Below the pieces are notes generated by a model, which saw only the letters and a program-made list of their open reading frames with translations, was not told the origin of the DNA and made no database searches. Both the position numbers and the translations under genes were made by a program. Below, piece after piece: positions 2 to 13,901 of a stretch of DNA of 13,901 nucleotides (positions are counted from its first letter, which is position 1; each line of letters starts with the position of its first letter). This DNA is from Deltaproteobacteria bacterium (lineage in GTDB: Bacteria > JAUYMQ01): contig JAUYMQ010000330.1 in assembly GCA_030698575.1 (NCBI GenBank), positions 1-13,901 of the forward strand, written 5' to 3'.

Positions 2-868
2 CGGGGCAGTTCGCCGCTCTTCCTGTGGGTCCACTTCCAGGATCCGCACGGGCCCTACGTGCCGCCGGACGATCTCGCGGACCGCTACCTCGAAGCCGAG
101 CGCGCCGCGCCCGACGGACAGGTTCTGTTGTCCCTTTCGAATAACGTCCGCGGGATAGGGGGGATCCCGACCTATCAGGTGGTCGCGGGCCGCACGCAGG
201 CCGCGGAGTACCGCGCCGCGTACGACGGCGAGGTGCGCTACGCGGACGCCGAGATCGGCCTGCTGCTGGAGGGCCTCGCGGAGCGAGGGCTCACCGGGGG
301 TGCCGTCGTGATCTTCGCCGCCGATCACGGGGAGGGAATGGGCGAGGGGAACTACTGGTTTGCCCACGGCGAGTACCTGAGCGACGCGCTTCTCCACGTG
401 CCGCTGCTCATCGCCGGGCCGGGCGTCGCGCCGGGCGAGCGCCTAGACCTCGTCTCGCTCGTTGATCTGCTGCCTACGATCACCGGTCTTCTCGGCGTGG
501 CGCCCCCGCCGGAGCTTGCGGGCCGCAACCTCTTTTCAGGCGGGCTGGACGAAGGGAAGGAGAGCGAGGAGCGGGCGGTTTACTTCATGAGCCTGCCGAA
601 GGAATCGACAAGCCCGCGCTTCGGCCTGGCCCGCGGCGGGTACAAGTACATCGTGACAGCCGGGGAGGGCGGCCTGAGGGAGGAGCTGTTTGCGCTGGGC
701 CAGGATGGCGAGAACCTGCTGGTGGAGGAGCAGGAGGAGGCGCGATCCATGGCCGCCGCACTGGCGTCGTTACGGCGGCAGTTTCCGGAGGCAGGCAGCG
801 TGAAGAAGCGCAGCCTGTCGGCCACAGAGCGCGAGAAGCTTCGTTCGCTTGGCTACGTGTCGGAGTGA
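2..868 (+). CDS. Sulfatase family protein, C-terminal part (5' end outside window)
   Basis: The frame is open from the first bases of the window, so the true start lies upstream. The visible 288 residues begin with FLWVHFQDPHGPYVPP, the typical sulfatase segment after the nucleotide/metal core. They continue with VIFAADHGEGMGE and FAHGEYLSDALLHVPLLI, the DHGE...HG metal-site region of the alkaline phosphatase/sulfatase superfamily. The protein ends in LSATEREKLRSLGYVSE, a tail often seen in bacterial sulfatases. The family hydrolyses sulfate esters, or in some members transfers phosphoryl groups. The formylglycine motif (C/S-x-P-x-R) that would settle activity is not in the window, so substrate and activity cannot be assigned. 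The 3' end overlaps the convergent phasin gene by 16 bp (853-868), leaving no room for an intergenic terminator. Confidence 0.9.
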   Translation, partial: RGSSPLFLWVHFQDPHGPYVPPDDLADRYLEAERAAPDGQVLLSLSNNVRGIGGIPTYQVVAGRTQAAEYRAAYDGEVRYADAEIGLLLEGLAERGLTGGAVVIFAADHGEGMGEGNYWFAHGEYLSDALLHVPLLIAGPGVAPGERLDLVSLVDLLPTITGLLGVAPPPELAGRNLFSGGLDEGKESEERAVYFMSLPKESTSPRFGLARGGYKYIVTAGEGGLREELFALGQDGENLLVEEQEEARSMAAALASLRRQFPEAGSVKKRSLSATEREKLRSLGYVSE

Positions 869-1227
869 GGCGTACGAGGGCGGGATCGGGGGCGCTGCAT
901 GTTCTCGATCTTCTTCGTCAGGTGATCGATAGTTTCCCGCAGCCGCTCAATCTCGGCGCGCTCGGGGATGTTCAGGCGGCGGAGGGCGGCGCGGATGCTC
1001 GATTCGATGGCGTCTTCCCATCCGCCGGGAACGCGCTTGAAGGCGTCGGCGAGCTTGTCCTTCAGTTTCTGGGCATCGGCGGAGGTCAGGTCGCCCTGCT
1101 CACGCGCCTTCCGTATGAAATCATCGAGCTCGTCCTTCCCCACCGCAGCGGCGCCCACGCTCGCCAGCACGATCCGGCGCAGCAGGTCGCTGAGCCCCTC
1201 GCCGCTGTTGTTTTCTCGACCCGTCAA
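853..1227 (-). CDS. Phasin-like PHA granule-associated protein (COG3937 type)
   Basis: This 124-aa protein is predicted to be almost wholly helical. Residues 11-40 (GLSDLLRRIVLASVGAAAVG then KDELDDFIRK) form the amphipathic N-terminal helix pair seen in small phasins annotated as PHA synthesis regulators. Residues 44-110 form a charged coiled-coil region, followed by a basic, Pro/Arg-rich tail. Phasins coat polyhydroxyalkanoate granules or modulate PHA synthase. The chosen start is TTG, because GGGAGGA lies 5 nt upstream and the start overlaps the phaR stop by 4 bp (TTGA). It is the last gene of the operon and converges on the sulfatase with a 16-bp overlap. Residues 44-110 align without gaps to residues 126-192 of the PhaR protein just upstream. 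The family call is from memory of motifs, so a role in PHA metabolism is likely but not proven. Confidence 0.8.
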   Translation of the reverse strand: MTGRENNSGEGLSDLLRRIVLASVGAAAVGKDELDDFIRKAREQGDLTSADAQKLKDKLADAFKRVPGGWEDAIESSIRAALRRLNIPERAEIERLRETIDHLTKKIENMQRPRSRPRTPHSDT

Positions 1228-1856
1228 TTTCGTCCTCCCGCGGTCCTCGAAGCGCGCCGTTTGGCGCGCGGCTGCGCATCCAGCCGATCCACCGCATCGG
1301 CGAGCCGATCGACGCTGCTCCTCAGCCGATCGACATCCTCGCGGGCGGGGACGTCGAACCGGCGCGAGAGCTGCTGCAGGCGCTCATCGATCTGCCCCCC
1401 GATCTCCGTCTGCCCTTCCTTCACCCAGTCGGCCAGGCGGCGGACCAGGGTCTCTCCCTCGTCGACGTTCAGTTCGCCCCGGCTGACGAGGCGCCGGACC
1501 GTCAGCTCCAGATCACCGCCGGCGTCCGCGATTTTCTCCACCCCGCTCGTGATTGAGCGCCTCACTACATCGAACAGATCGTCGCCCTTCTGGATGAGCT
1601 CCACCAGGAGAGGCCTCGGAAGAGCGTCACGGCCCTTTCGCTCGTTCTCGAGGAGAATCTGCGAGAGGGTGACGCTGGTGAGATCCTCGCTGCTGTCGTT
1701 GTCGACGACACGGATGTTCGAGCCCGACTTCACCAGCTCAGCCAGCTCATCGAGGGTGATGTAGCGGCTCTCCCGGGTATTGTAGAGCTTCCGGTTCGAG
1801 TAACGCTTGATGAGCAACGGTGAGTTGGGATCGTCGGCCTTTTTTCTGCGGCTCAT
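1224..1856 (-). CDS. phaR: PHA accumulation regulator PhaR with C-terminal phasin-like module
   Basis: The protein has 210 aa. Residues 15-73 carry the PHB/PHA accumulation regulator DNA-binding domain (PF07879 type): IKRYSNRKLYNTRESRYITL followed by DELAELVKSGSNIRVVDN. PhaR proteins bind DNA and PHA granules and repress phasin and pha genes until granules form. The middle (residues 75-120) resembles the second PHB accumulation domain. Residues 126-192 form a charged coiled coil homologous to the neighbouring phasin, and the tail is basic (RAKRRASRTAGGR). The start is the ATG at 1856, preceded by AAGGTGG and overlapping the upstream gene by 4 bp (ATGA). The frame stays open upstream to 2141, but that stretch is antisense-like, low-complexity Arg-rich sequence lying inside the 163-aa gene. 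Autoregulation of this operon is plausible but inferred. Confidence 0.9.
   Translation of the reverse strand: MSRRKKADDPNSPLLIKRYSNRKLYNTRESRYITLDELAELVKSGSNIRVVDNDSSEDLTSVTLSQILLENERKGRDALPRPLLVELIQKGDDLFDVVRRSITSGVEKIADAGGDLELTVRRLVSRGELNVDEGETLVRRLADWVKEGQTEIGGQIDERLQQLSRRFDVPAREDVDRLRSSVDRLADAVDRLDAQPRAKRRASRTAGGRN
1233..1239 (-). promoter_or_regulatory. Strong ribosome binding site that fixes the TTG start of the phasin
   Basis: On the minus strand GGGAGGA is followed by 5 nt and then TTG. No ATG or GTG is as well placed. The site lies inside the 3' end of phaR, so the phasin start is coupled to translation of phaR. Confidence 0.7.
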
Positions 1857-2344
1857 TCCACCTTCACTTTCCGTGCACCACGCGACGGGCGCCCCTTCGG
1901 AGGCGATTGCGCGCCGAGGAGTTCCATCTGCCGGTCTATGATAGCCTTTACCGAGCGAAAGGTCTGTGCAAGAATCGCGGCATCTTTTCCCAGGGCGCCG
2001 GCTTCGAGACGCTCGATCTCCTTGGCGAGCGCTTCCTGCACCGTTGCGAGAGTCTCCCGCTTGATGGCTCGCGAGGGGTCGTCGCCGAGTTTGCGCAGCC
2101 GGCTTGCCGCCGAGTCGATCAATTCGCGGAGGAGGCGCCATCCGGCCGCTCCGCCGCTGTCCGTCCCCTCACTTCCCTCAGACCGAAGTTCTGCTACGTC
2201 GATGGGCACACTCACGGCGACCCGCAACGCGAGCAGCAGCTCCACGCCCGCGTTGGCCAGGTGGGCCTGCCCCTCGTCCCAGCGTCCCTCGAGGATCTCC
2301 GTGATCGCGGCGCCTCGCGCCTTGGACTTTCGTTTCGGACTCAT
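1853..2344 (-). CDS. Conserved-context protein of unknown function, helical, basic tail
   Basis: I do not recognise this 163-aa family. It starts with a basic stretch (MSPKRKSKARG). A helical segment near residues 18-50 follows (GRWDEGQAHLANAGVELLLA...), then a Gly/Ser-rich linker near 54-67, and two more amphipathic, charged helices at about 68-140. It ends in a Lys/Arg-rich tail (KGRPSRGARKVKVE). No signal peptide or membrane segment is visible. It is locked into the operon by 4-bp ATGA overlaps on both sides (ArsA-like ATPase upstream, phaR downstream), and GAGGGG lies about 9 nt before the start. The helical content, basic ends and position beside phaR and a phasin would fit a granule- or nucleoid-associated protein or a partner or client of the ATPases. 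That is only inference from context. Confidence 0.75.
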   Translation of the reverse strand: MSPKRKSKARGAAITEILEGRWDEGQAHLANAGVELLLALRVAVSVPIDVAELRSEGSEGTDSGGAAGWRLLRELIDSAASRLRKLGDDPSRAIKRETLATVQEALAKEIERLEAGALGKDAAILAQTFRSVKAIIDRQMELLGAQSPPKGRPSRGARKVKVE

Positions 2345-3513
2345 TTCTTGCGCCCCTCGAAGATGATGAGGAATCGACCCTGCTCGAGCTTGGCTCGCTT
2401 CACCTCAAGCCCGACAAGCGCCCTCGGAAGCTGGATGCTTCGCTTCACGTTGTTCACCCGCAGGATGAGATCGTCGCCCTTCACCCATAGCTCGACGTTC
2501 TCCTTCACGGCGAAGGGGAGGTGAATCGTCATGCGGTACTCGCCGTTCTTCTTGGAAACCTCGAAGGGCTTCTCCGTGTGATAGATCGAGGCCGGATCCT
2601 CGTTTCCGAAAACCTCCAGCGCCGCGTCTCCGAGCAATTCGACGCCGCCAATTTCGCGGGGAAACAGCGGGACCTGGAGGATCGGCAACGGCGAGAAGCA
2701 GGCGTCGGCGGTCTTCATGTGCTCGGTCTGGATATCCCGCCAGCCCGCCATGTAGGGGTCCTGCAGATCTTTCGGGAGAACCCGGTTGGCGAAAACGCAG
2801 TCGACGGAGAAGCCGTAAAGCGACAGGTAGGTGAGCGCGCGCTGGCTCTCCTTGATCACCATGCGCTCGGGGTTGAATACCAGCCGGATCGAGGCCTTCC
2901 CCGCGTCGCTCAGCAGATCCTTCATTCCCTTCAGCCGGAGATAGAGCCTCTCGACGTTGTCGTAGACATCTTCCGTCGGCAGCGGAACCTTCATGATGCG
3001 CTCCGCCACCGGCTTGAAGGCTTTCACCAGCTTCCGCTCGATGTGGAAAAATTTCTCCATGTACCAGCCCGCCACCTCGGGGAAGCTCAGCATTCGCATC
3101 GTGCTCCCCGTGGGCGCGCAGTCGATGATGGCAAGGTCGTAGTCGCCCGACTCGGCGAACTCCCGGAGCTTCAGGAGGCTGAACAGCTCCTCCATTCCGG
3201 GGAAGAGCGCCATCTCCTCGGCGATGACATCCTCGAAACCTTGTCGCTTCAGGAATTCGGTGAGGTAGGCGTGGATCTTGTCCCAGTTGACCTGCAGCTC
3301 CCGGTTGACGTCCAGCTCCTGCGCCCAGAGCCGCGGGGCGATTTTGACGAGATCGTGGCCCAGCGGCCGATCCAGCGCGTCGGCAAGGCTGTGCGCCGAA
3401 TCCGTCGAGATGACGACGGTGCGGTGGCCCAGTTCGGCGGCGCGCACGGCAGTCATGGCCGAAATGGTCGTCTTCCCGACGCCGCCTTTTCCCGTGTAGA
3501 GAATGATTCGCAT
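2341..3513 (-). CDS. ArsA/Get3-like ATPase with C-terminal HSP20-like domain
   Basis: The protein has 390 aa. The deviant Walker A GKGGVGKTT (residues 8-16) keeps the signature lysine K9. Switch I reads STDSAHSLADAL (36-47), close to the STDPAHNLSDAF of Get3/ArsA, and switch II is DCAPTGSTMR (131-140). Residues about 314-390 form a beta-rich domain (EYRMTIHLPFAVKENVELWV ...DDLILRVNN...) matching the small HSP20-like domain fused to some ArsA ATPases (PF17886 type). No CxxC zinc motif is present, unlike eukaryotic Get3, and there is no ArsB, ArsD or ArsR nearby, so an arsenite pump is unlikely. The ATG at 3513 is chosen because AAGGG lies 5 nt upstream and MRIILYTGKGG is the normal family N-terminus; a GTG 8 codons upstream is the alternative. 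It sits 41 nt after the second ATPase gene. Confidence 0.9.
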   Translation of the reverse strand: MRIILYTGKGGVGKTTISAMTAVRAAELGHRTVVISTDSAHSLADALDRPLGHDLVKIAPRLWAQELDVNRELQVNWDKIHAYLTEFLKRQGFEDVIAEEMALFPGMEELFSLLKLREFAESGDYDLAIIDCAPTGSTMRMLSFPEVAGWYMEKFFHIERKLVKAFKPVAERIMKVPLPTEDVYDNVERLYLRLKGMKDLLSDAGKASIRLVFNPERMVIKESQRALTYLSLYGFSVDCVFANRVLPKDLQDPYMAGWRDIQTEHMKTADACFSPLPILQVPLFPREIGGVELLGDAALEVFGNEDPASIYHTEKPFEVSKKNGEYRMTIHLPFAVKENVELWVKGDDLILRVNNVKRSIQLPRALVGLEVKRAKLEQGRFLIIFEGRKK

Positions 3514-3554
3514 GCGATCCCTTGACCTCGGATCCACTTCGGCCGGCGGCCCCT

Positions 3555-4721
3555 TCAGGCCGCGAAGAGGTGCTGGTTCAAAAGGCTCAGCCCGTCGAAA
3601 TCGTGCACGTCGAGGGGAAACAGCGGCACGCTCAGGAGCCCCACGCCCCTGTCGAGAGAGCCCGCAAGCGTTTCGATGTTGCGCGAATCCCTCTCGGCCA
3701 TCGCCTGGTGCCTTGCCAAATTTAGCAGGAGTTTGGACGCCGTGCTGCGGAAACCATCGAACCCCGCGGCTTCGGCCATGCGCGCGGCGGCTTCTTGCCG
3801 CCCCTGGTCCGAGAGCAGCGGACCCCCCGGACCAGCTGCGCTCCCCGCGAGAGGGCGGTGCACCTTGTTTACGATGACCGCGTCGACGTGCATTTTGTGC
3901 TCGACGAGCTTGTTGTAGAAGAAAACCGTCTCGTCGAGAAGCCGCCGGTTCGGGCTGGTGACCAGGAGAAAGCCGGTGTCCCTGTCCGCTAGGAGCGCCT
4001 TCACGCGCTTGGCCCGCTGATTGAAGCCGTCGTACATTCCCTCGAAGGAAAGAATGAAGTCCGAGATGTCCTTCAGGAACTCCATCCCCGTGACCTTTTC
4101 CAGCACCCCGAAGACGCTGCTCGTGCCCTTGCGGAACACCTTGAAGCCGAGCTGCCCTGCCATCAGATAGGGCTTCACGAGCCAGTGAATGACCTTTCCT
4201 TCCAGGAAGGCGGTGATCCGGTCCGGCGCCTCGAGAAAATCGAGGGCGTGCCGGGTGGGCGGCGTGTCGAGGACGATGAGATCCGCGTCTTCGGTCGAGT
4301 GAAGGTCGAAGAGCTTTTCCATCGCCATGTACTCGCGGCTGCCCGACAGCGTTTCCGAGAGTTGCTGGTAGATCGGATTTCCGAGAATTGCGTCGCGCAT
4401 CTCGACGTTGAGCGCGAAGCGCTCGACGAGATCGTCGAAGGTTCGCTTCGTGTCCACCATCATTGCGCGGAGTTCTCCTTTGAGCGGGACTCCCGCCTTT
4501 TCGAACTTCCGCCTTGGCACCGCCCGCACCTCGTTGCCGAATTCGGAGACTCCGAGCGCGTTCGCCAGCCGGCGGGCGGGATCGATCGTGAGAACGAGAG
4601 TGCGCTGTCCCAGCATTGCCGCCCGGATGGCGATTGCCGCCGCGGTCGTGGTCTTACCGACGCCGCCGGCGCCGCAACAGACGAGTATCTTCTTCTCCTG
4701 CAGGAGCGCGTCGAGATTCAT
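3555..4721 (-). CDS. ArsA-like ATPase, subfamily with CCGAGGVGKT P-loop
   Basis: The protein has 388 aa. The P-loop is CCGAGGVGKTT (residues 15-25). The catalytic lysine K23 is present, but the signature lysine of the deviant Walker A is replaced by alanine (A18). It is followed by LTIDPARRLANALG and, further on, by VLDTPPTRHALDFLEAPDRI, which stands in for the usual DTAPTGHTLR. These motifs match, from memory, the second member of the actinobacterial ArsA-like pair Rv3679/Rv3680, described as bacterial Get3-like ATPases. The length fits the family, and no membrane segment or HSP20-like domain is seen. The ATG at 4721 overlaps the upstream ATPase stop by 4 bp (ATGA), and the Shine-Dalgarno is weak, suggesting coupling. 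It probably works as a heterodimer with the neighbouring ATPase that keeps the signature lysine (inference). Confidence 0.9.
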   Translation of the reverse strand: MNLDALLQEKKILVCCGAGGVGKTTTAAAIAIRAAMLGQRTLVLTIDPARRLANALGVSEFGNEVRAVPRRKFEKAGVPLKGELRAMMVDTKRTFDDLVERFALNVEMRDAILGNPIYQQLSETLSGSREYMAMEKLFDLHSTEDADLIVLDTPPTRHALDFLEAPDRITAFLEGKVIHWLVKPYLMAGQLGFKVFRKGTSSVFGVLEKVTGMEFLKDISDFILSFEGMYDGFNQRAKRVKALLADRDTGFLLVTSPNRRLLDETVFFYNKLVEHKMHVDAVIVNKVHRPLAGSAAGPGGPLLSDQGRQEAAARMAEAAGFDGFRSTASKLLLNLARHQAMAERDSRNIETLAGSLDRGVGLLSVPLFPLDVHDFDGLSLLNQHLFAA

Positions 4722-5698
4722 GGCGTGTTGCTCTCGTCGATGATGATCTCGCCGAGCCCGCGGAGATCCTCGATCGAGAGATCGGTTTGATAGACGAAGG
4801 GGAGCTGGATGGTGCGCTTCCGCACGCGCGCCCGAAGGCGGCGGATGTGGTGAACATTCAGGGCCTGGCGCGCTATCGCATCCTTTCCGATCCGGATGAG
4901 AGCGGCGGCGTCGAGCCCCTCGCCGAGGGTTTGCGACAGTCGGTCCAGCGCCTCCGGGTCGGCTTCGAGCTTTTCGATGGCGGCGGCGTCGCTACTGTCG
5001 AAGAGCCTGGGGGCGACCCCGTTGACGATCACCAGTTCGAAGGGGACCTTCAGTTTTTCGTCCGCCGCCTTCGCCATCTCCGCGGCCTCGTTCACGGGCA
5101 GCTCCTCGGGGAGGGTCACGAGTATGAGACGCGTCCGCGCCGGGTCCTCGATAAGATCTCGCACCCACTGACTATGCGTTCGGGGCGGGCCGAACCTTAT
5201 CGCCTTCACGAAAGCGCCCGGCGTCTGCAGGAAGCCGAGCCCTTGCCCCGTGGCGGGCGCATCGACGATGATCAGGTCGTATTTCGGGCGGTTGGACCCG
5301 GCCTCCCGCTGGCTTTCGAGATGCCAGACCTTCCCGAGCGTGATGAGATCGCGGAAACCGGGCGCCACCTCGACGAGCTGCTTGAACAACGGATTGTGCG
5401 AGATGAGGCGGACCAGGCGGCGCGAGGGGAGCTGGGTCTCGAGGTATTCCTCCAGCGCCCGGTAGGGGTGGAGGTTGATGGCCCAGATGTTCTCGTCGAC
5501 GGGTACTTCGTTGTGGCCGGCGGGCTGGGCGCCGAAGATCCGAGAGAAGTGCTCGCGCGGCCCGATCTCGACCAGAAGGACCCGCTTCCCGCGCTTCGCC
5601 GCCGCCAGCGCCAGTGCGGCGCTCACGGTCGTCTTTCCGACCCCCCCCTTGCCCGTGACGAGCAGGAGCCGCATCGCGAGCGGGGAGGCAGCTTTCAT
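4718..5698 (-). CDS. ArsA-like ATPase, first gene of the operon
   Basis: The protein has 326 aa. The P-loop is TGKGGVGKTT with signature lysine K17, followed by LLVEIGPREHFSRIFG. The switch II segment is VDAPATGQGLGFLQTP. The C-terminal part carries RKRTIQLPFVYQTDLSIEDL, typical of the first partner of paired ArsA-like ATPases. No HSP20-like domain, CxxC motif or membrane segment is seen. The ATG at 5698 has AAGGGG 5 nt upstream. An upstream in-frame TTG at 5749 would add 17 residues without family support, and the internal ATG at 5674 lacks a ribosome site. It is the first gene of the operon and is preceded by a TTGACA-type promoter candidate. It differs strongly in sequence from the two downstream ATPases, so the three are old paralogues, not a recent duplication. 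Confidence 0.9.
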   Translation of the reverse strand: MKAASPLAMRLLLVTGKGGVGKTTVSAALALAAAKRGKRVLLVEIGPREHFSRIFGAQPAGHNEVPVDENIWAINLHPYRALEEYLETQLPSRRLVRLISHNPLFKQLVEVAPGFRDLITLGKVWHLESQREAGSNRPKYDLIIVDAPATGQGLGFLQTPGAFVKAIRFGPPRTHSQWVRDLIEDPARTRLILVTLPEELPVNEAAEMAKAADEKLKVPFELVIVNGVAPRLFDSSDAAAIEKLEADPEALDRLSQTLGEGLDAAALIRIGKDAIARQALNVHHIRRLRARVRKRTIQLPFVYQTDLSIEDLRGLGEIIIDESNTP

Positions 5699-5909: not shown

Positions 5910-7406
5910 ATGATCGTCAGCTGCGAGTACTGCGCCACCCGCTTCAAGTTCGACGAGCAGCGCATCAAGCCCAAAGGGATCAAGGTCCACTGCTCGCGGT
6001 GCCGGCGCACCTTTGTCCTGAAGCATCCGGACACGCCCGTCGCCCCTGCCGAAACCGAGCAGGTAGCGCCCGATCTGGCCACGCAGGCCGAACTCCCTTC
6101 GCCCGTCGTCGACACCGCCGGCGCGGACTCCGCGGCGTTGTCCGACCCGGAGGTCTTCGAGGACGATCCGCTTGCCGACGTGCCGGGTTTCGACCCCGAC
6201 GACCTGCCGTCTTCCGTGAACGACGCAGCGGCGGAGGAGGAGAAGGCCCTCGAGGCTCTCGCGCGGGATGATCAGCTCGATGCCGGGGTGGCCCAGGCAC
6301 TCGATCGATTCGGGGCGCCGCCCTTCGATGCAGGCGAAGGCGAGGAGGAAGCCGCCGGGGAGGACGTGGCGGAAAGTGCCGATCTGTCCGCTGATGCGGA
6401 TCTCTTTGATGCCGCCGGCTTGACAGATGACGAGGCGGGCGAGGAGACAAACGACGATCAAGCGGATCTTCCCTCTCTCGAGGGGGAGGCCGCGAAGGGG
6501 GACGACAGCTTCGGCACGCCCGTGGAATTCGACTGGGATCAGGTCTCGTTCTCGAAGGGGAAGGAAGCCGCGAGCGCCGGCGCCGAGGAGAGCGAAACAG
6601 AGCCGGCGGTGGACGGCGAAGATGACACATCGTTTTTCACCGAGCCGACAGTCCATGAGAAGCAGGCGCCGCCGAGCCTCGCCTCGGTGGAGGCAGATTC
6701 GGCGAAGGCCTTCGAGACCGAATCACTGGAGCTCGACCTGAGGAATGTTTCGAGCCGGCCAGGCCTTGTGAAACCGGCCCCCGCGCCGGTCGCCCCCGCC
6801 GCGGCCAAGGCTCGTCCGGCGCCCGCGGTGGATAGTTCCCGCCGTGATGCCGCGGCGACTCCCAAAAAAGCCAAAGCCGTCGTCGTGCCCCCGCTCCGGA
6901 TGAGGGCGCGGCCGGAGCGCGCGGCCCTCGCGCTTCCGGGCATCAGCGGCCTGATTCTTTCGATCGGCCTCGGGCTCGTTGCCGCGGGCGCCGGGGCGAT
7001 ACTGGCCTACACGCCCTCCCGCGGTGGTGCCGAGCTTGTTCGACCGGCGGGGGGCGCCGCCGGAAGCACCGCTCTTTTGGTCGAGGATACCCGCAGCATC
7101 ACCGTCGATCGCCTTCAGGGGCCGTCGCTCTACCTGGTCACCGGCAAGGCGCGCTGGAAGGGACCGTCGCAGGCTTTGGCCTACCTCGAGGGGGTCATCA
7201 CCGACGACGCCGGGAAGATTCTCGAGCGCCGCCCGGCCCGCCTCGGCGAGTTGCCGAACTGGAAGACGATCGAAGCGGTCGACCCGGATCTCTTCGCCCC
7301 CCACACGCCGCTCCCCGCCGACGGAGAGACTCCCTTCAGCCTGCTCTTCGCTCCCGATCCGACATGGCGAGGCGAGGTGCACTTCGAGCTGCGCACCGGC
7401 GAATGA
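5910..7406 (+). CDS. Zinc-ribbon, acidic, single-pass membrane protein (MJ0042/DUF3426-like)
   Basis: The protein has 498 aa. The N-terminus holds a zinc ribbon, C5-x2-C8 and C28-x2-C31, in the arrangement of the MJ0042-type zinc-finger domain. Residues about 50-270 are a long, low-complexity acidic region (many D/E, A, G), probably disordered. A Pro/Ala-rich basic linker follows to about 335. One membrane helix spans about 340-366 (GISGLILSIGLGLVAAGAGA). Residues about 389-498 form an extracytoplasmic domain (VDRLQGPSLYLVTGKARWKG, ...GELPNWKTIEAVDPDLF) reminiscent of DUF3426. The start ATG has GGAG 5 nt upstream. It stands alone, divergent from the ATPase operon and sealed by a hairpin. The function is unknown. 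The topology (cytoplasmic zinc ribbon, outer domain beyond the membrane) suggests a scaffold or trans-envelope sensor, which is inference. Confidence 0.85.
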   Translation: MIVSCEYCATRFKFDEQRIKPKGIKVHCSRCRRTFVLKHPDTPVAPAETEQVAPDLATQAELPSPVVDTAGADSAALSDPEVFEDDPLADVPGFDPDDLPSSVNDAAAEEEKALEALARDDQLDAGVAQALDRFGAPPFDAGEGEEEAAGEDVAESADLSADADLFDAAGLTDDEAGEETNDDQADLPSLEGEAAKGDDSFGTPVEFDWDQVSFSKGKEAASAGAEESETEPAVDGEDDTSFFTEPTVHEKQAPPSLASVEADSAKAFETESLELDLRNVSSRPGLVKPAPAPVAPAAAKARPAPAVDSSRRDAAATPKKAKAVVVPPLRMRARPERAALALPGISGLILSIGLGLVAAGAGAILAYTPSRGGAELVRPAGGAAGSTALLVEDTRSITVDRLQGPSLYLVTGKARWKGPSQALAYLEGVITDDAGKILERRPARLGELPNWKTIEAVDPDLFAPHTPLPADGETPFSLLFAPDPTWRGEVHFELRTGE

Positions 7407-7420
7407 TGCGCAGCTGAATC

Positions 7421-7455
7421 AACAAGGCCGATCGCGCCTCGCGATCGGCCTTGTT
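7421..7455. terminator. Bidirectional hairpin terminator between convergent genes
   Basis: A perfect 15-bp inverted repeat (AACAAGGCCGATCGC and its complement) has a 5-nt loop, or 16 bp with a 3-nt loop if the inner G-C closes. It lies 15 nt after the zinc-ribbon gene stop and 32 nt past the end of tatA on the other strand. AACAA on the left arm and TTGTT on the right give a short U-rich end in both directions. Confidence 0.8.
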
Positions 7456-7486
7456 AATACCGCCTCCGCGAACCCTCAGGTCCGCT

Positions 7487-7699
7487 TCAGCTCGTCGAAC
7501 CGGGCGTGGAATTCCCGGTCTCGTCCTCGCCGGTCTTCTTGGGTGTCACGTCGATCTCGTCCGGCTCCTTTGTCGCCTTCTTGAAGGCCTTGATGCTCTT
7601 CCCGAGAGCGCCGCCCAGCTCGGGAAGTCGCCCGACGCCAAAGATGATCACGACCATCAGGAGGATAAGCACCAACTCCCAGATCCCCAGTCCGAACAT
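7487..7699 (-). CDS. tatA: Twin-arginine translocase subunit TatA/TatE family
   Basis: The protein has 70 aa. The N-terminus [20 protein letters not shown] is the short TatA membrane helix with the conserved Glu at residue 8, followed by [20 protein letters not shown], the hinge and amphipathic helix, and then an acidic/Thr-Ser tail. TatA oligomers form the protein-conducting element of the Tat pathway for folded proteins, in the inner membrane together with TatC. The ATG at 7699 is chosen because the family begins exactly here; the open frame extends 28 codons upstream with no family similarity. GGGGA lies about 6 nt before it. No tatB or tatC is adjacent. It converges on the zinc-ribbon gene across the hairpin at 7421-7455. 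Confidence 0.93.
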
Positions 7700-7783
7700 G
7701 GGCAGTCCCCATAACAGGGATCCCCTGGAACTCGCGCCATCGTGGCACGCGGGCTTCAGAAACCCCTTGTAATAGTTGAACAA

Positions 7784-7812
7784 ACGCTAGCCCAGGGGCA
7801 GGGGGAAGTCAA
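7784..7812 (-). promoter_or_regulatory. tatA: Candidate tatA promoter
   Basis: On the minus strand TTGACT (7807-7812) is followed after 17 nt by TAGCGT (about 7784-7789). The -35 is close to consensus and the -10 is poor (3 of 6). It would give a leader of roughly 80 nt before the tatA ATG. Confidence 0.3.
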
Positions 7813-7855
7813 CCACGATGATGTGGAGGGGCGCGGCGCCCGCCGGGCCGGTGTC

Positions 7856-8581
7856 TCAGACGAGACTCTGGAGGACATGCCGGTTGATGGCTCGCTGGTC
7901 CTTGGTTTCGATGCTGGTGAACTTGATTCCCACGCCCGGCGGATAGGACATCTCGGTGTCTGGCCGGTATTCGTTGCGCCAGGTCACAATGCCCTCGGAC
8001 TCGATGAGGTGCTTCCTGCGCGGGAGACTGAAGGCGAGCCTCAGCTCGGTGTTCTCCGGGGGAGGCGAGATCGTGCGGAGAAAGAGGCCTCCCGTGGAGA
8101 TGTTGTAGGAGTAGCCCGAGAGCTCGGTCTCCTCGATCCGGTAGCGAACGAGGATGTTTTCCTCGATCCGCGGATTCATCCGGAGCTCCCGCTTGTCGGG
8201 ATAGAGGATCCGGTTGATGCGGAAGAGAACTTGGTCCAGCGGGGTCTTCTTGCTCATGTAGCCCGCCGCACCCAGTTGCTTCAGCTCCTCCACGTGCTTT
8301 TCACGGTAGGCGCTCGAGATGGCCAGCACCGGGATACCCGCCGTGACCTTGGCCTGCTTCAGTTCACGGAGAACGCCGAAACCGTCCAGCTCGGGCATGC
8401 GGATGTCGAGGAGCACGAGGGAGACGTCCTGCAGCTCGTACTTCAGCTTCCGGACGCACTCAAGACCGTCCGAGGCGACGTGCACCGCGTAGCCGGCATT
8501 GTTCAGCATCTCCCGGAGCATGCGCTGCCAGAGCTTCGAGTCGTCGGCGACCAGAATGCTGATGTTCTGCGAGTTGGCCAT
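7856..8581 (-). CDS. Response regulator with REC and PilZ domains
   Basis: The protein has 241 aa. Residues 7-125 form a receiver domain. D13/D14 make the acidic pocket, D59 in LVLLDIRMPELDG is the phosphorylation site, S89/S90 take the Thr/Ser switch position, and K111/K112 supply the conserved lysine. Residues about 130-236 form a PilZ domain with both c-di-GMP motifs intact: RxxxR as R134-MNP-R138, and NxSxxG as N160-ISTG-G165. The ending PGVGIKFTSI is typical of the PilZ type common in Myxococcus-like bacteria. It therefore probably joins a phosphorelay input to c-di-GMP binding, as in motility or envelope control. The ATG at 8581 has GGGGAGGGG 7 nt upstream; a GTG six codons earlier overlaps that ribosome site and is less likely. 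No histidine kinase is adjacent. Confidence 0.92.
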   Translation of the reverse strand: MANSQNISILVADDSKLWQRMLREMLNNAGYAVHVASDGLECVRKLKYELQDVSLVLLDIRMPELDGFGVLRELKQAKVTAGIPVLAISSAYREKHVEELKQLGAAGYMSKKTPLDQVLFRINRILYPDKRELRMNPRIEENILVRYRIEETELSGYSYNISTGGLFLRTISPPPENTELRLAFSLPRRKHLIESEGIVTWRNEYRPDTEMSYPPGVGIKFTSIETKDQRAINRHVLQSLV

Positions 8582-8743
8582 GATGGCGCCCCTCCCCACC
8601 GCCGGGGGTTCTGCGGATTACTGCACTTGTCTGTGCTTATCGACGCTTTGCCACGAGATCCTGAGTTGGAAGGGGGGGCGGGGGGGATTGCTTCGTCGGG
8701 CCTGCGGTCCTCCTCGCAATGACATGCGGGCGCGGGGCCGGGC
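8582..8743. other. Intergenic region between permease and response regulator genes
   Basis: These 162 bp hold the interspersed repeat (8687-8724) and G runs. I see no clear promoter for the downstream response regulator gene and no good rho-independent terminator for the permease operon. The repeat itself may act as a weak hairpin. Confidence 0.5.
8687..8724. repeat. Interspersed CATTGCGAG...GAAGCAATC-type repeat
   Basis: On the minus strand the unit begins TGTCATTGCGAGGAGGACCG and ends GACGAAGCAAT. It has 5-bp terminal inverted repeats (ATTGC/GCAAT). Sequences of the form CATTGCGAG...GAAGCAATC are known to recur in intergenic DNA of unrelated bacteria. Only one copy is in the window. It is flanked on the left by two 7-base G runs (8672-8678 and 8680-8686). 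Confidence 0.6.
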
Positions 8744-10318
8744 TTACCTGTCCGGGGCGCCCTGCCCGGTTCGGTCGGGGGGGCGCCACCGTGCCCGGTG
8801 AAACAGCAGCAGAACGCCTGCAAAAACGAGGTATGCGGACCCCAGCAGCACCGGGGCCCGCTCGGCGATGCGCCAGGGGAGGAACATCTCGCCCCCCGGT
8901 AGAGGGGAATGGATGATCCCGAAGAGCGCGGCCAGGGCGCCGGCGGTCATGAAGGCGGCTGCCCGGAGAAGGGCGCCGTCGATGATGAGGGCAAGCGCTC
9001 CGCCCCAGAGCAGCGCGCTGAAGATGAAGCCGCCGGACAGCAGGTGAAGGCTCCGGTAGGTGGCGGCGGTCTCACCCGTGAGGCTGGCGGGGCCGAGGCC
9101 GACGTTCGAGAGGGTGGTGCCGATCTGGATCACGAGCAGGCTCGCGATTACCGGCAGAAAGGAGAGCGCCACGGCGGGGGCGTGCTTCGGCGGCGAAGCC
9201 TGGAACGCCTGCGCGCAGATCTCGATGCCGATGAAGACAAGGATGGGCGCGACGGCCGCCGCGGGAATGAAGGTCACGAAGAAGGAGAGGTAGCCGAGAA
9301 ATCCGCCCAGGCCGATGAAGAGCGCCGTTGCGGCGGTGTAGCCCGCGCGGCCACCCATCTCCTTGTAGGCTGGATGGCCGATGTAGGGCGTGGTCTGGAT
9401 GACGCCGCCGCAGAGCCCCGCCACGAAGGTTGCCAGCCCTTCCGTCATGACCACGTCGCGCGTGCTGTACTCATCTCCCGCCGCGGCGGCCGACTCGGTG
9501 TTGTCGATTCCGCCGACGACCGTCGCGAGGGCGAAGGGAATGGCGATTGGCAGGTAGGGGAGCATGGCGCCCAGCCCGTCGAGAAAGCCCAGCGTCGGCA
9601 ACGGCAAGGCGGGGTGGAGCATCAGCGCCTCCGCCAGCGGGGGGACGAGATGATGCGTGAGACCGGCGGCGCCGAGGGTGTAGAAAGCGACCGTGCCAAG
9701 CGCCGCCGCGAGAAAGGCGCCGGGAAAGGCCGCCGGCAGTGCGATGCGCGCGACCAGGCAGGCCAGCACGATGGAGAGCGAGAGGAAGCCCACCACGGGC
9801 TCGCCGAAGATCTCCAGCGCCGGCAGGAAGGCGATGAGCAGGATTGCGACTGCTGCGATCGATCCGAGGAGCCCCGCCCGAGGAACCACTCGGCGGACCC
9901 ATTCCGCCGCGTAGGCGCAGACCACTTTCAGGAGTCCCATCGACACCATGAGGGCCATGCCGATCTGCCAGGCGAGCGTCTCGTCTCCGGTGGCGCGCAG
10001 GGCGGGTCCGAGCACGCCGAATGTGAGCCCGAAAAGGCTCGGTGTGTCGATTCCCAGCGGCATGGCCGTCACGTCGTCGCGCCCCTCGCGACGCGCCAGG
10101 CGCACGGCCATCCACGTGTAGACGAGATCGCCGACGAGCACGCCCACCGCCGTGCCGGGGATGATGCGCGTCAGCACGATCTCCTCCGAGAATCCGAAGA
10201 TCTCGATCAGGATCCCGGCGAGGATCACGATCTGCGTCATGTTGTCGAGCATGAGCCCGAAGAAGGCGTTGACGTCTCCCCGGCCCACCCAGGCAACTCT
10301 CCGGCCTCCGGCGCTCAC
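8744..10318 (-). CDS. NCS2/AzgA-like permease, probably nucleobase or related solute
   Basis: The protein has 524 aa and about a dozen or more hydrophobic helices, an inner-membrane transporter. The N-terminal part (NAFFGLMLDNMTQIVILAGI, ...MPLGIDTPSLFGLTFGVLGP) and the central VVGGIDNTESAAAAGDEYST followed by CGGVIQTTPYIGHPAYKEMG resemble the NCS2 xanthine/uracil and AzgA purine permease superfamily, where a conserved acidic/Gly segment lies in the eighth to tenth helices. Sequence divergence from classical members leaves the substrate open. The start is GTG at 10318, with AAGGAG at 10325-10330 six nt upstream and overlapping the stop of the preceding gene. The gene is therefore co-transcribed with, and translationally linked to, the secreted protein gene 10 bp upstream. 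Confidence 0.82.
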   Translation of the reverse strand: MSAGGRRVAWVGRGDVNAFFGLMLDNMTQIVILAGILIEIFGFSEEIVLTRIIPGTAVGVLVGDLVYTWMAVRLARREGRDDVTAMPLGIDTPSLFGLTFGVLGPALRATGDETLAWQIGMALMVSMGLLKVVCAYAAEWVRRVVPRAGLLGSIAAVAILLIAFLPALEIFGEPVVGFLSLSIVLACLVARIALPAAFPGAFLAAALGTVAFYTLGAAGLTHHLVPPLAEALMLHPALPLPTLGFLDGLGAMLPYLPIAIPFALATVVGGIDNTESAAAAGDEYSTRDVVMTEGLATFVAGLCGGVIQTTPYIGHPAYKEMGGRAGYTAATALFIGLGGFLGYLSFFVTFIPAAAVAPILVFIGIEICAQAFQASPPKHAPAVALSFLPVIASLLVIQIGTTLSNVGLGPASLTGETAATYRSLHLLSGGFIFSALLWGGALALIIDGALLRAAAFMTAGALAALFGIIHSPLPGGEMFLPWRIAERAPVLLGSAYLVFAGVLLLFHRARWRPPDRTGQGAPDR

Positions 10319-10324
10319 TGTTCT

Positions 10325-10330
10325 CTCCTT
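10325..10330 (-). promoter_or_regulatory. Ribosome binding site deciding the GTG start of the permease
   Basis: AAGGAG on the minus strand is spaced 6 nt from the GTG at 10318. It overlaps the TAA stop (10329-10331) of the upstream secreted-protein gene. Confidence 0.65.
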
Positions 10331-11765
10331 ATCTTGCCAGCCCGGGCCCGGCCTTCACGCGTAGCGGCGCGTGCAGTCTCGCGAGAACGATCTTCTCCGT
10401 TCCCGGCCCGAAATCCTCGAGCACGTAAAGATGGACCTGGTCCGGTCCGTCGCCCGCCCGCCGTCCCGGGTTCGTGAGCCGCCAGCCGATGGCCGGCCGC
10501 CCTCCCGGCGCGCGCTCCGGCGGATCCGGCGCGGCGTCGTCGCTGAAGAGCAGCGTGGGCGCGGGCGAACGCGTGCCGCGCTTTCCGGCTTTTCGAAACA
10601 CGGCCAGGAGCGCGCCGTGCTGCGGCGTCCGGAGCGCCCACCAGGCCGAGGGGAGCCCGTCAAGCGCCTCCTCGACGGGCGTTTCCTTCCCGTCGGCGGG
10701 CACGCCTTTCGGGATCGGCGCGGCGAAAACCGTGCTGCCCTTCGGCGGCTGGAAGTCCCAGTAGAGGCGGGCAGTCACGTCGCGCACGAGAAAGCTCATC
10801 GCGCCGGGCACCCCGTCGGGCTCCTCGATGATGATCCGGTCGGGAAGGTGGATCGTGGTCGACTCCACCCTCGCGTCCAGCCAGGGTCTGAGGCGCACGC
10901 GGCGCTCGATCTTCCGGATGGCCCGCAGCGGGCCGTCGATGACGCCGAGCAGTCGGGCGTCGATGCGATCCTCGTTGCGGCGGAAATCGGCCCCGGGCAG
11001 GAAACGGAGGCGGCCTTCGTAACGCAGCTTCTCCCGGTCGAGAAGGTTAGGACCGTGCCGCTCGCTCCCCTTCCCGTCGATGGCCAGCTCGGTCATCACG
11101 CTGGGAACGAAACGCCCGCCCCGCCGGGGGTAGAAGATTCGGTAGTAAGGCGTGACGAAGCTGTCGCCGAGCGCGGCGGACGCCGCGTAGGCGCGGACGT
11201 CGTCCACGGCCGGGAGCGGAGGCACCGGTTCGTCGAACTGAAAGAGGTAAGCCCAGCCCCGGTGCCCCGTGACGGGGTCCTGGACCTCCAGCTCCACGCC
11301 TGCGATCGTCCCCTTGGGCCAGGCCGTCCGCGCAACGCGGACACCGAGGTCGCGAGGGCGGAAGACAATCTCGTCTTCCGGCGTGAATAGTCCCTCACCC
11401 TCCGCGGCAGGAGATTCTGCGGCCCCCGCGGGGGCCGGCCAGATCCATCTGCCTCCAGCGTCCCGCTCGTCGATCTGGAAGGGAATGACGGCCCACTCCT
11501 CGTCGAGCCGGTAGACCACCATGCGCAGGCGGCTGATCGCCACCGGCTCGCCGGGCAGAGCGACCTCTTTCCCTCGCAGAACCACGAGATCGCGGGGGCG
11601 GTCGATGCGTGATCGGGGAAGCTGCGCGCGCATGCGCGCGAAAACGGCGCCCGGGCCTTCCTGCGTGCCACTCGGAGATTCGGCCCAGGCGGAGGTGGGC
11701 GGCGCAGCCGCCAGCGTGAATGCGACCCAACACAAAAACAGAGCGGCGGCCTTAGATGCTCTCAT
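10329..11765 (-). CDS. Secreted protein of unknown function
   Basis: The protein has 478 aa. The N-terminus MRASKAAALFLCWVAFTLAA is a signal peptide, with likely cleavage after AWA near residue 28 (no lipobox cysteine at that site). The mature part is rich in predicted beta strands and aromatic/charged residues. It includes RMVVYRLDEEWAVIPFQIDE, FTPEDEIVFRPRDLG and a conserved-looking RIEEP/FLVRD region. Such PFQIDE...DEIVF patterns occur in uncharacterised exported proteins, and I cannot name a function. It shares an operon with the permease 10 bp downstream, so a role in binding or processing the permease substrate is possible. No Shine-Dalgarno precedes the ATG. CATAAT lies 5 nt upstream of it, which would place transcription start at or near the ATG (possible leaderless mRNA). 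Confidence 0.8.
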   Translation of the reverse strand: MRASKAAALFLCWVAFTLAAAPPTSAWAESPSGTQEGPGAVFARMRAQLPRSRIDRPRDLVVLRGKEVALPGEPVAISRLRMVVYRLDEEWAVIPFQIDERDAGGRWIWPAPAGAAESPAAEGEGLFTPEDEIVFRPRDLGVRVARTAWPKGTIAGVELEVQDPVTGHRGWAYLFQFDEPVPPLPAVDDVRAYAASAALGDSFVTPYYRIFYPRRGGRFVPSVMTELAIDGKGSERHGPNLLDREKLRYEGRLRFLPGADFRRNEDRIDARLLGVIDGPLRAIRKIERRVRLRPWLDARVESTTIHLPDRIIIEEPDGVPGAMSFLVRDVTARLYWDFQPPKGSTVFAAPIPKGVPADGKETPVEEALDGLPSAWWALRTPQHGALLAVFRKAGKRGTRSPAPTLLFSDDAAPDPPERAPGGRPAIGWRLTNPGRRAGDGPDQVHLYVLEDFGPGTEKIVLARLHAPLRVKAGPGLAR

Positions 11766-13066: not shown

Positions 13067-13901
13067 CTAGCCGGATTCGGACGGCCAGGGATAGGCATCT
13101 TGCTTACAGGCCACGTAATTTTCATCGAGCCTAGGCTCGAGAAGCACGATCGCGGCTATCCGGCGGCCCATGTCGGTGACCTCGCGGGCTTCCTCCAGCC
13201 TGAGCGGCCTTCCCAGTAAAGCGCGCTCTCTATACGAAAGCCATTTTTTGATGACCTGGTAGCCACCGATAACGTAATCCCATACGCGTGAGGGAACATT
13301 CTTCCAGTACGCCTCGTTGTTCAGATAAACGTCGCAAGTGCGCTCCCCGAGGTGCTTCAACGCCTGCTTTGTGGTCAGACCGAGCGCCTTGGCGCCCGCG
13401 CTGATGGCTTCCATCTCGTCCGGCGCATAGTCCCGCGCCAGGATCTTTCCCTTCCCCGGCATTGTGACGCCCCCCTTACCCGAGTGCCCCCAACCGGCGG
13501 TCAGAGCCAATCGCTCGGAATCTGAGCTGATCTGCCCCCCGCCCACACGAAAGATCACGGCAATGCCTTTCAGTTCGGGCCGCAGCTTGCCCGAGGTCAC
13601 GCCCGGGACAGGGGTTTCCGTATCCAGCCGCATTGCGACCTGGTTTCCGAGCTCTGCGGAAGCCAAGAGCGCTTTCTTCGCGCTTGGAAGGGGAATGCGA
13701 GGCCAGTCCTGACGAATTCCATCCGTGTTATCAGCCAGGTATAGGGGTGAATAACCGATTGCGAGGGCGTGCAACCATATGATCTGAGGGTTGATGGCGC
13801 CAGCGCTCTTCTGGTTTTTGTCAATCGTGGATAGATAGCCGATTGCCCTGGGAGAATAGTTCGGCGAGGTGCTACCGTCATCGCGCGAAGTTTCTTGATA
13901 G
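13067..13901 (-). CDS. Type ISP restriction-modification enzyme, C-terminal part (5' end outside window)
   Basis: The minus-strand frame is open to the window edge, so at least 277 C-terminal residues are visible and the start lies outside. The region NPQIIWLHALAIGYSPLYLA (just upstream of a TTG that should not be taken as the start) and DVYLNNEAYWKNVPSRVWDY followed by VIGGYQVIKKWLSYRE and LGRPLRLEEAREVTDMGRRI are characteristic of the C-terminal specificity part of single-chain Type ISP enzymes and related helicase-methylase fusions. These enzymes join nuclease, helicase, adenine methyltransferase and target recognition in one long protein. The stop is TAG at 13067. It lies 96 bp upstream of the antitoxin gene and on the same strand. 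Whether the full gene is intact cannot be told here. Confidence 0.85.
   Translation of the reverse strand, partial: YQETSRDDGSTSPNYSPRAIGYLSTIDKNQKSAGAINPQIIWLHALAIGYSPLYLADNTDGIRQDWPRIPLPSAKKALLASAELGNQVAMRLDTETPVPGVTSGKLRPELKGIAVIFRVGGGQISSDSERLALTAGWGHSGKGGVTMPGKGKILARDYAPDEMEAISAGAKALGLTTKQALKHLGERTCDVYLNNEAYWKNVPSRVWDYVIGGYQVIKKWLSYRERALLGRPLRLEEAREVTDMGRRIAAIVLLEPRLDENYVACKQDAYPWPSESG

Follow-up and report, generated by a model that had tools for sequence, protein, structure and literature searches.

Why would a bacterium encode three ATPases of the ArsA/Get3 family in one array with proteins named for the storage of polyhydroxyalkanoate (PHA)? This question is raised by the 13,901-nucleotide contig JAUYMQ010000330.1 of a Deltaproteobacteria bacterium (assembly GCA_030698575.1), the whole of which we call the window. 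Six open reading frames (ORFs) form a single minus-strand array there. The first gene encodes a BagA-like ATPase (4718–5698, 326 residues), and it is followed by a BagB-like ATPase (3555–4721, 388 residues), a Get3-like ATPase with a C-terminal HSP20/alpha-crystallin-like domain (2341–3513, 390 residues), a 163-residue all-helical protein with no family match (1853–2344), a PhaR-like protein (1224–1856, 210 residues) and a small phasin-like protein with a TTG start (853–1227, 124 residues). The BagA/BagB, Get3-like/163-residue, 163-residue/PhaR and PhaR/phasin junctions are 4-bp overlaps and the fifth junction, BagB/Get3-like, is a 41-bp gap; we infer from this sequence that the six genes are co-transcribed as one operon. 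An initial annotation had listed the same ORFs and four overlapping junctions out of five, had left the 163-residue protein without a family and had recognised PhaR and a phasin; its coordinates and family calls were right. It had also proposed that the ATPases move amphipathic proteins to PHA granules or membrane. Here we find that the association of such ATPases with PhaR-domain and phasin-like proteins is a recurrent one, and that the link to granules does not stand.

PF02374 was found in all three ATPases by Pfam scan. By sequence comparison, the first two are homologues of BagA and BagB of Mycobacterium tuberculosis (Rv3679/Rv3680). The BagB-like protein matched Rv3680 (PDB 6bs3_B) over residues 9–384 with an E value of 4.5e-66, a full-length homology, and the BagA-like protein matched Rv3679 (6bs3_A) over residues 8–262 of its 326 (E 1.6e-27), and the window thus holds an adjacent bagA–bagB pair homologous to the mycobacterial one. 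The top NCBIfam models were also BagA (153 bits) and BagB (337 bits), however both scores lie below the equivalog cut-offs (400 for NF053622 and 521 for NF053621), and by that standard the two proteins are BagAB relatives rather than equivalogs. The P-loops read GKGGVGKT in the BagA-like protein, GAGGVGKT in the BagB-like protein and GKGGVGKT in the third ATPase, as the AGG/KGG motifs of the initial annotation had implied. Among the BagB proteins that we collected, the signature lysine has given way to S, A, P or T in all 45 readable P-loops, whereas the collected BagA proteins retain this intradimer lysine in 42 of 42. In a motif survey, the switch-I aspartate was retained in BagB (TIDPARRLA) and missing from BagA, which has LVEV or LVEI at that position. 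The signature lysine works across the dimer in the MinD/Get3-type ATPase fold, and together with this asymmetry it predicts a BagA–BagB heterodimer with a single composite active ATP site, to which BagA would contribute the lysine and BagB the catalytic aspartate. The same genome carries a second BagA–BagB pair on contig C25 (L103, 767–2991), with no PhaR or phasin-like neighbour in the stretch read.

We surveyed 385 other deep-branching genomes from across the domain for these genes, with BagB called at an E value of at most 1e-35. PF07879, the PhaR-domain family, was present in 53 genomes and BagB in 35, and 27 of the 35 BagB genomes also carry a PhaR-domain gene, against 4.8 expected (hypergeometric p 5e-20). 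Counted by family the figure is 23 against 4.8 (p 6e-16), both p-values being inflated by shared ancestry. The co-occurrence persisted in the subset with listed sizes, both in genomes of at least 4 Mb (13/15 vs 5/32) and in those below 4 Mb. The genes are also physically close: BagAB lies within 8 kb of PhaR in five genomes, each of a different family (L053, L056, L060, L064 and L075), where 0.18 would be expected (p 1e-6), and Get3-like genes lie within 8 kb of PhaR in three more (L046, L065 and L079). In a Desulfobacteraceae metagenome-assembled genome (MAG; L037), PhaR, phasin, BagA and BagB follow one another in succession.

Two of the surveyed genomes, G028 and G175, belong to the same phylum, which we take to be probably Myxococcota. 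In a sample of 77 genomes and 83 PhaR loci from this phylum, BagB was found within 10 kb at 38 of the loci, in 8 families, where about 0.4 would be expected. The neighbourhood check that had been suggested for the ATPase–PF07879 linkage therefore refutes chance, and the conclusion that the association is recurrent is well supported. The usual order in this phylum is TatA> <zinc-ribbon PhaR> <ParA <phasin-like BagA> BagB>, and that of the window is TatA> <zinc-ribbon BagA> BagB> Get3-like> 163-residue> PhaR> phasin>; the members and the TatA/zinc-ribbon flank are common to both, while the order and the strands differ.

The ParA gene in this arrangement brings up the possibility that a body coated with phasin is positioned on the nucleoid by ParA and that BagAB maintain its coat. 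Many loci of the G175 phylum indeed have ParA between PhaR and the phasin/BagA genes, and in L065 and L074 a ParA gene lies close to PhaR. However ParA is missing both from the window and from the clusters L037, L053, L064, L075 and L079, and we consider cargo positioning an improbable account of the association.

The PhaR-linked rows are scattered over the BagB tree, where nine changes of linkage are needed and at least three are forced by well-supported branches, which indicates that PhaR linkage has been gained or lost several times. Linkage could still reflect co-location in an old housekeeping neighbourhood, kept for want of rearrangement and with no shared function, and the TatA and zinc-ribbon neighbours, which are also shared and seem unrelated in function, fit that explanation. 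Against it, the members stay constant across groups while order and strands vary, the genes co-occur genome-wide even where they are unlinked, and the linkage is spread across the BagB tree; we think this account fairly unlikely.

The BagBs nearest to that of the window on the tree are unlinked copies from MAGs titled Ca. Poribacteria/Abyssobacteria. In the loci L146, L147 and L021 of such MAGs, BagAB is preceded by phosphotransferase system enzyme I and a protein of ~300 residues with an apparent N-terminal membrane helix, and in L021, L147 and L022 a 147-residue protein follows BagAB. No neighbour was common to all of the unlinked BagAB pairs.

The identity of the PhaR-like and phasin-like proteins bears directly on the granule question. 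The PhaR-like protein has a PHB_acc_N domain (PF07879, 90 bits) and a weak PF05597 match (29 bits), its TIGR01848 score is under the cut-off (80 bits vs 109), and the granule-binding domain PHB_acc (PF05233) was not found in it by Pfam scan. Its C-terminal half instead matches the phasin profile (E 2e-19), and by phmmer the neighbouring phasin-like protein is homologous to this same half (E about 1e-11). The phasin-like protein passes the curated cut-off of PF05597 (39.0 bits vs 28.8) and is under that of TIGR01837 (47 bits vs 94.7). Like the PhaR repressor, the window protein combines a PHB_acc_N DNA-binding domain with an adjoining phasin-type gene. However the C-terminus of true PhaR is PHB_acc, which binds granules (PMC10888616), and the window protein differs from it by its phasin-like C-terminus, by a genome in which no PhaC was found and by its separate group in the PhaR tree. 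The small phasin-like protein resembles phasins in being helical and amphipathic and in passing the cut-off of Pfam, and departs from them in its TIGR01837 score and in its genome, where no PHA synthase was found.

If the operon served PHA granules, its ATPases would move phasin and PhaR to the granules and would be regulated together with granule formation. The PF07879 and PF05597 domains are in keeping with this, and two genomes with Get3–PhaR linkage, G044 and G049, have PhaC-like genes. However we found no recognisable PhaC in the window genome, a 4.1-Mb MAG that is 91.6% complete and the sole member of its phylum among the genomes compared; the best candidate there, an abhydrolase with the Ser box GHSMG, reaches 68 bits where the cut-off is 365. 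PhaC was likewise not found in G024, G082, G130 and G131, and G028 and G175 gave weak, abhydrolase-level matches alone. In the G175 phylum, PhaC lies within 10 kb at 12 PhaR loci, none of them BagB-linked, and thus at 0 of the 38 BagB-linked loci. There is no PhaC anywhere in 22 of the 38 genomes with a BagB-linked PhaR, and some PhaC-like gene elsewhere in the other 16, which counts in favour of a granule role. Where such a genome has a single, BagB-linked PhaR, PHA regulation may occur in trans; six of the 38 carry a BagB-linked and a PhaC-linked PhaR as two separate copies.

These two kinds of PhaR are distinct proteins. In a PhaR tree made by a quick method, a branch with 97% support sets the 26 ATPase-linked rows, without exception, apart from the 12 linked to PhaC, with one change, and a phasin-like C-terminus is present in 24 of the 26 ATPase-linked PhaRs but in 0 of the 12 PhaC-linked copies, which have another C-terminus. 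Because no PhaC was found, the phasin-like protein of the window is unlikely to coat PHA granules. Thus one half of the earlier proposal stands, namely that Get3-family ATPases occur recurrently with PhaR-domain and phasin-like proteins, and the granule half is rejected on the absence of PhaC, the PhaR tree and the domain make-up. The granule reading is not supported for the window operon and is to be dropped there, and we rate an ATP-driven granule system as quite improbable.

The third ATPase is, judging by its domains, a Get3 that ends in an alpha-crystallin-like domain. It matches PF02374 with 292 bits and, at its C-terminus, the HSP20-like PF17886 with 66 bits (cut-off 22.5), passes TIGR00345 (265 bits; cut-off 135), and aligns with archaeal Get3 (3ug6/3zq6) across the whole ATPase domain (E about 1e-48). 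Both the signature lysine and the switch-I aspartate are present (GKGGVGKT, STDSAHSLAD), and the alignment shows no CXXC at the place of the C..C of archaeal Get3. In its domains and its lack of CXXC it is like Get3d (NosGet3d/All4481 and plant Get3d; PMC10248533). However it is closer to archaeal Get3 (1e-48) than to All4481 (1e-21) and is under the cut-off of the NosGet3d equivalog NF050088 (151 bits vs 325). An AlphaFold2 model of the Get3-like protein built from three sequences was poor (predicted local distance difference test (pLDDT) score 56) and was not used. The window protein is 49% identical to the Get3-like proteins of L025 (1111–4768) and L027 (about 7012–10315), two loci in Acidobacteria/Vicinamibacteria MAGs where BagA, BagB and the Get3-like gene stand in a row without PhaR, and thus the three-ATPase array can stand alone. 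As a separate observation, ORFs of ~380–420 residues with ArsA_HSP20 were seen in the window genome and in about 45 other places, in many deep-branching families; these are probably also Get3 proteins with an alpha-crystallin domain, and the architecture is probably not confined to photosynthetic bacteria.

These features suggest another explanation, in which the operon provides a Get3-type pathway whose clients, tail-anchored or other hydrophobic membrane proteins, are encoded elsewhere, with the PhaR-like and phasin-like proteins as regulators or assistants. The alignment of the third ATPase with archaeal Get3 is consistent with such a pathway, as is the alpha-crystallin-like domain, which is shared with Get3d, a reported binder of tail-anchored proteins (PMC10248533). 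However the cluster has no tail-anchored gene, no GET receptor was identified, and the CXXC is absent; we regard this pathway as unlikely.

ATPases of this family could also belong to a pump for arsenite or another anion, since PF02374 is named after ArsA. However the characterised proteins that come closest are BagAB and Get3, the ATPases are single-half proteins and not fused two-half proteins next to an arsenite permease, and no ArsB/Acr3-type gene was recognised by Pfam in the window. The initial annotation had likewise seen no arsenite genes nearby. An arsenite pump thus has no supporting gene and was rejected, and we judge any anion pump to be exceedingly improbable. The BagA/BagB locus of M. 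tuberculosis (6bs3) similarly consists of two adjacent single-half ArsA-family genes with the same P-loop asymmetry, although the window pair scores below the mycobacterial equivalog cut-offs, and none of the actinobacterial BagAB loci that we examined has a PhaR-domain gene nearby. BagAB of M. tuberculosis and M. smegmatis have been tied to glycerol, nitric oxide and citrate stress and not to arsenite (PMC10597346), and a mycobacterial transposon screen tied them to antibiotic survival (PMC12216072). These phenotypes, for which no client is named, fit an envelope or metabolic role.

The best explanation of the window operon is that it is one form of the BagA–BagB, PhaR-like and phasin-like association, here with a third, Get3-type ATPase. 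Because the pairing is met again in several phyla, mostly with no PHA synthase, it probably represents an undescribed system for handling proteins rather than one for plastic granules. Specifically, we tentatively propose a widespread, PHA-independent, ATP-driven system in which BagAB, sometimes with a Get3-type ATPase, would handle phasin-like amphipathic proteins under feedback from a PHA-independent branch of PhaR, an idea that we find plausible while holding it to be somewhat less than probable. ATPases of this kind take hydrophobic or amphipathic clients through ATP-dependent cycles. The BagAB and Get3-like dimers would open and close with ATP, bind and shield the amphipathic helices of phasin-like proteins, and deliver them to a membrane or lipid surface; since no PhaC was found, this surface is probably a membrane or another lipid body. 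The PhaR-like protein, with a C-terminal domain that resembles the likely client, could report free client or free surface and would repress the operon, as true PhaR does with phasins in PHA bacteria. We infer these clients, this surface and this feedback from sequence. Neutral-lipid droplets made by wax ester synthase/diacylglycerol acyltransferase were considered as the surface and rejected: PF03007 was over its cut-off in four of nine genomes with linked ATPases, the window genome not among them, and there was no consistent link. Anti-phage defence was rejected as well, the PADLOC matches being at the level of the P-loop only. We found no paper in the open literature that joins PhaR, ArsA and phasin, and related searches also returned no report of the association, so that as far as this search shows the recurrent pattern is unreported, in line with the initial annotation, which had named it a candidate for an undescribed system.

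Several observations weigh against this proposal. Sixty-one of the 99 PhaR-domain loci examined are near neither the ATPases nor PhaC, and many BagAB pairs lie away from PhaR, which indicates that neither requires the other as a neighbour. Only the window showed all six genes in exactly this order. Furthermore, hydropathy indicates that the phasin-like, PhaR-like and 163-residue proteins lack clear transmembrane segments, and they are thus not classical Get3 clients; the maximum 19-residue Kyte-Doolittle mean of the 163-residue protein is 1.67. This last protein had no match at a useful score in Pfam, NCBIfam, PHROG or PADLOC. Its AlphaFold2 model has five or six helices (pLDDT 65) and retrieved unspecific helical bundles alone in a fold search. 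Its best non-self match (E 0.088) is the ORF immediately upstream of PhaR in L064, and the small ORFs beside PhaR in L064 and L065, which look similar, fell below significance and were rejected as homologues.

Upstream of the operon and divergent from it is a gene for a zinc-ribbon protein (5910–7406, plus strand; PF13717/PF13719). In the related clusters L056, L060, L114, L116 and others, PhaR likewise has a divergent zinc-ribbon gene beside it, and on this positional ground the zinc-ribbon protein is a possible partner of the operon. The TatA-like gene (7487–7783, minus strand; PF02416, 65 bits) is a syntenic neighbour in the window and in related clusters and is possibly hitchhiking. The rest of the window, all on the minus strand where strand was noted, includes a 524-residue multi-pass membrane protein (8744–10318) that by eye resembles a permease and matched nothing in Pfam or NCBIfam, and a PIN_10-like protein (PF18478) whose gene overlaps that of a helix-turn-helix/DUF433 protein (PF04255; 11854–12994), a probable toxin–antitoxin pair. 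A fragment at 13067–13900 has a Type ISP C-terminal specificity domain (PF18135), from which a restriction-modification gene probably continues past the contig end. A 478-residue protein (10329–11765) and a 487-residue protein of L104 (3937–5400) have apparent signal peptides and no Pfam match, and by eye look like paralogues.

The split of PhaR into two groups implies that in many genomes without a PHA synthase an annotation as 'polyhydroxyalkanoate synthesis regulator' or 'phasin' probably misstates the function. For the ATPases, a recurrent genomic partner provides a direct and testable lead on the molecular function of BagAB, a conserved Get3-like pair that is also present in M. tuberculosis. 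If the proposed system is real, phasin-like proteins would be the first client class for BagAB, and proteins of the PhaR/phasin type would have a main role outside PHA storage.

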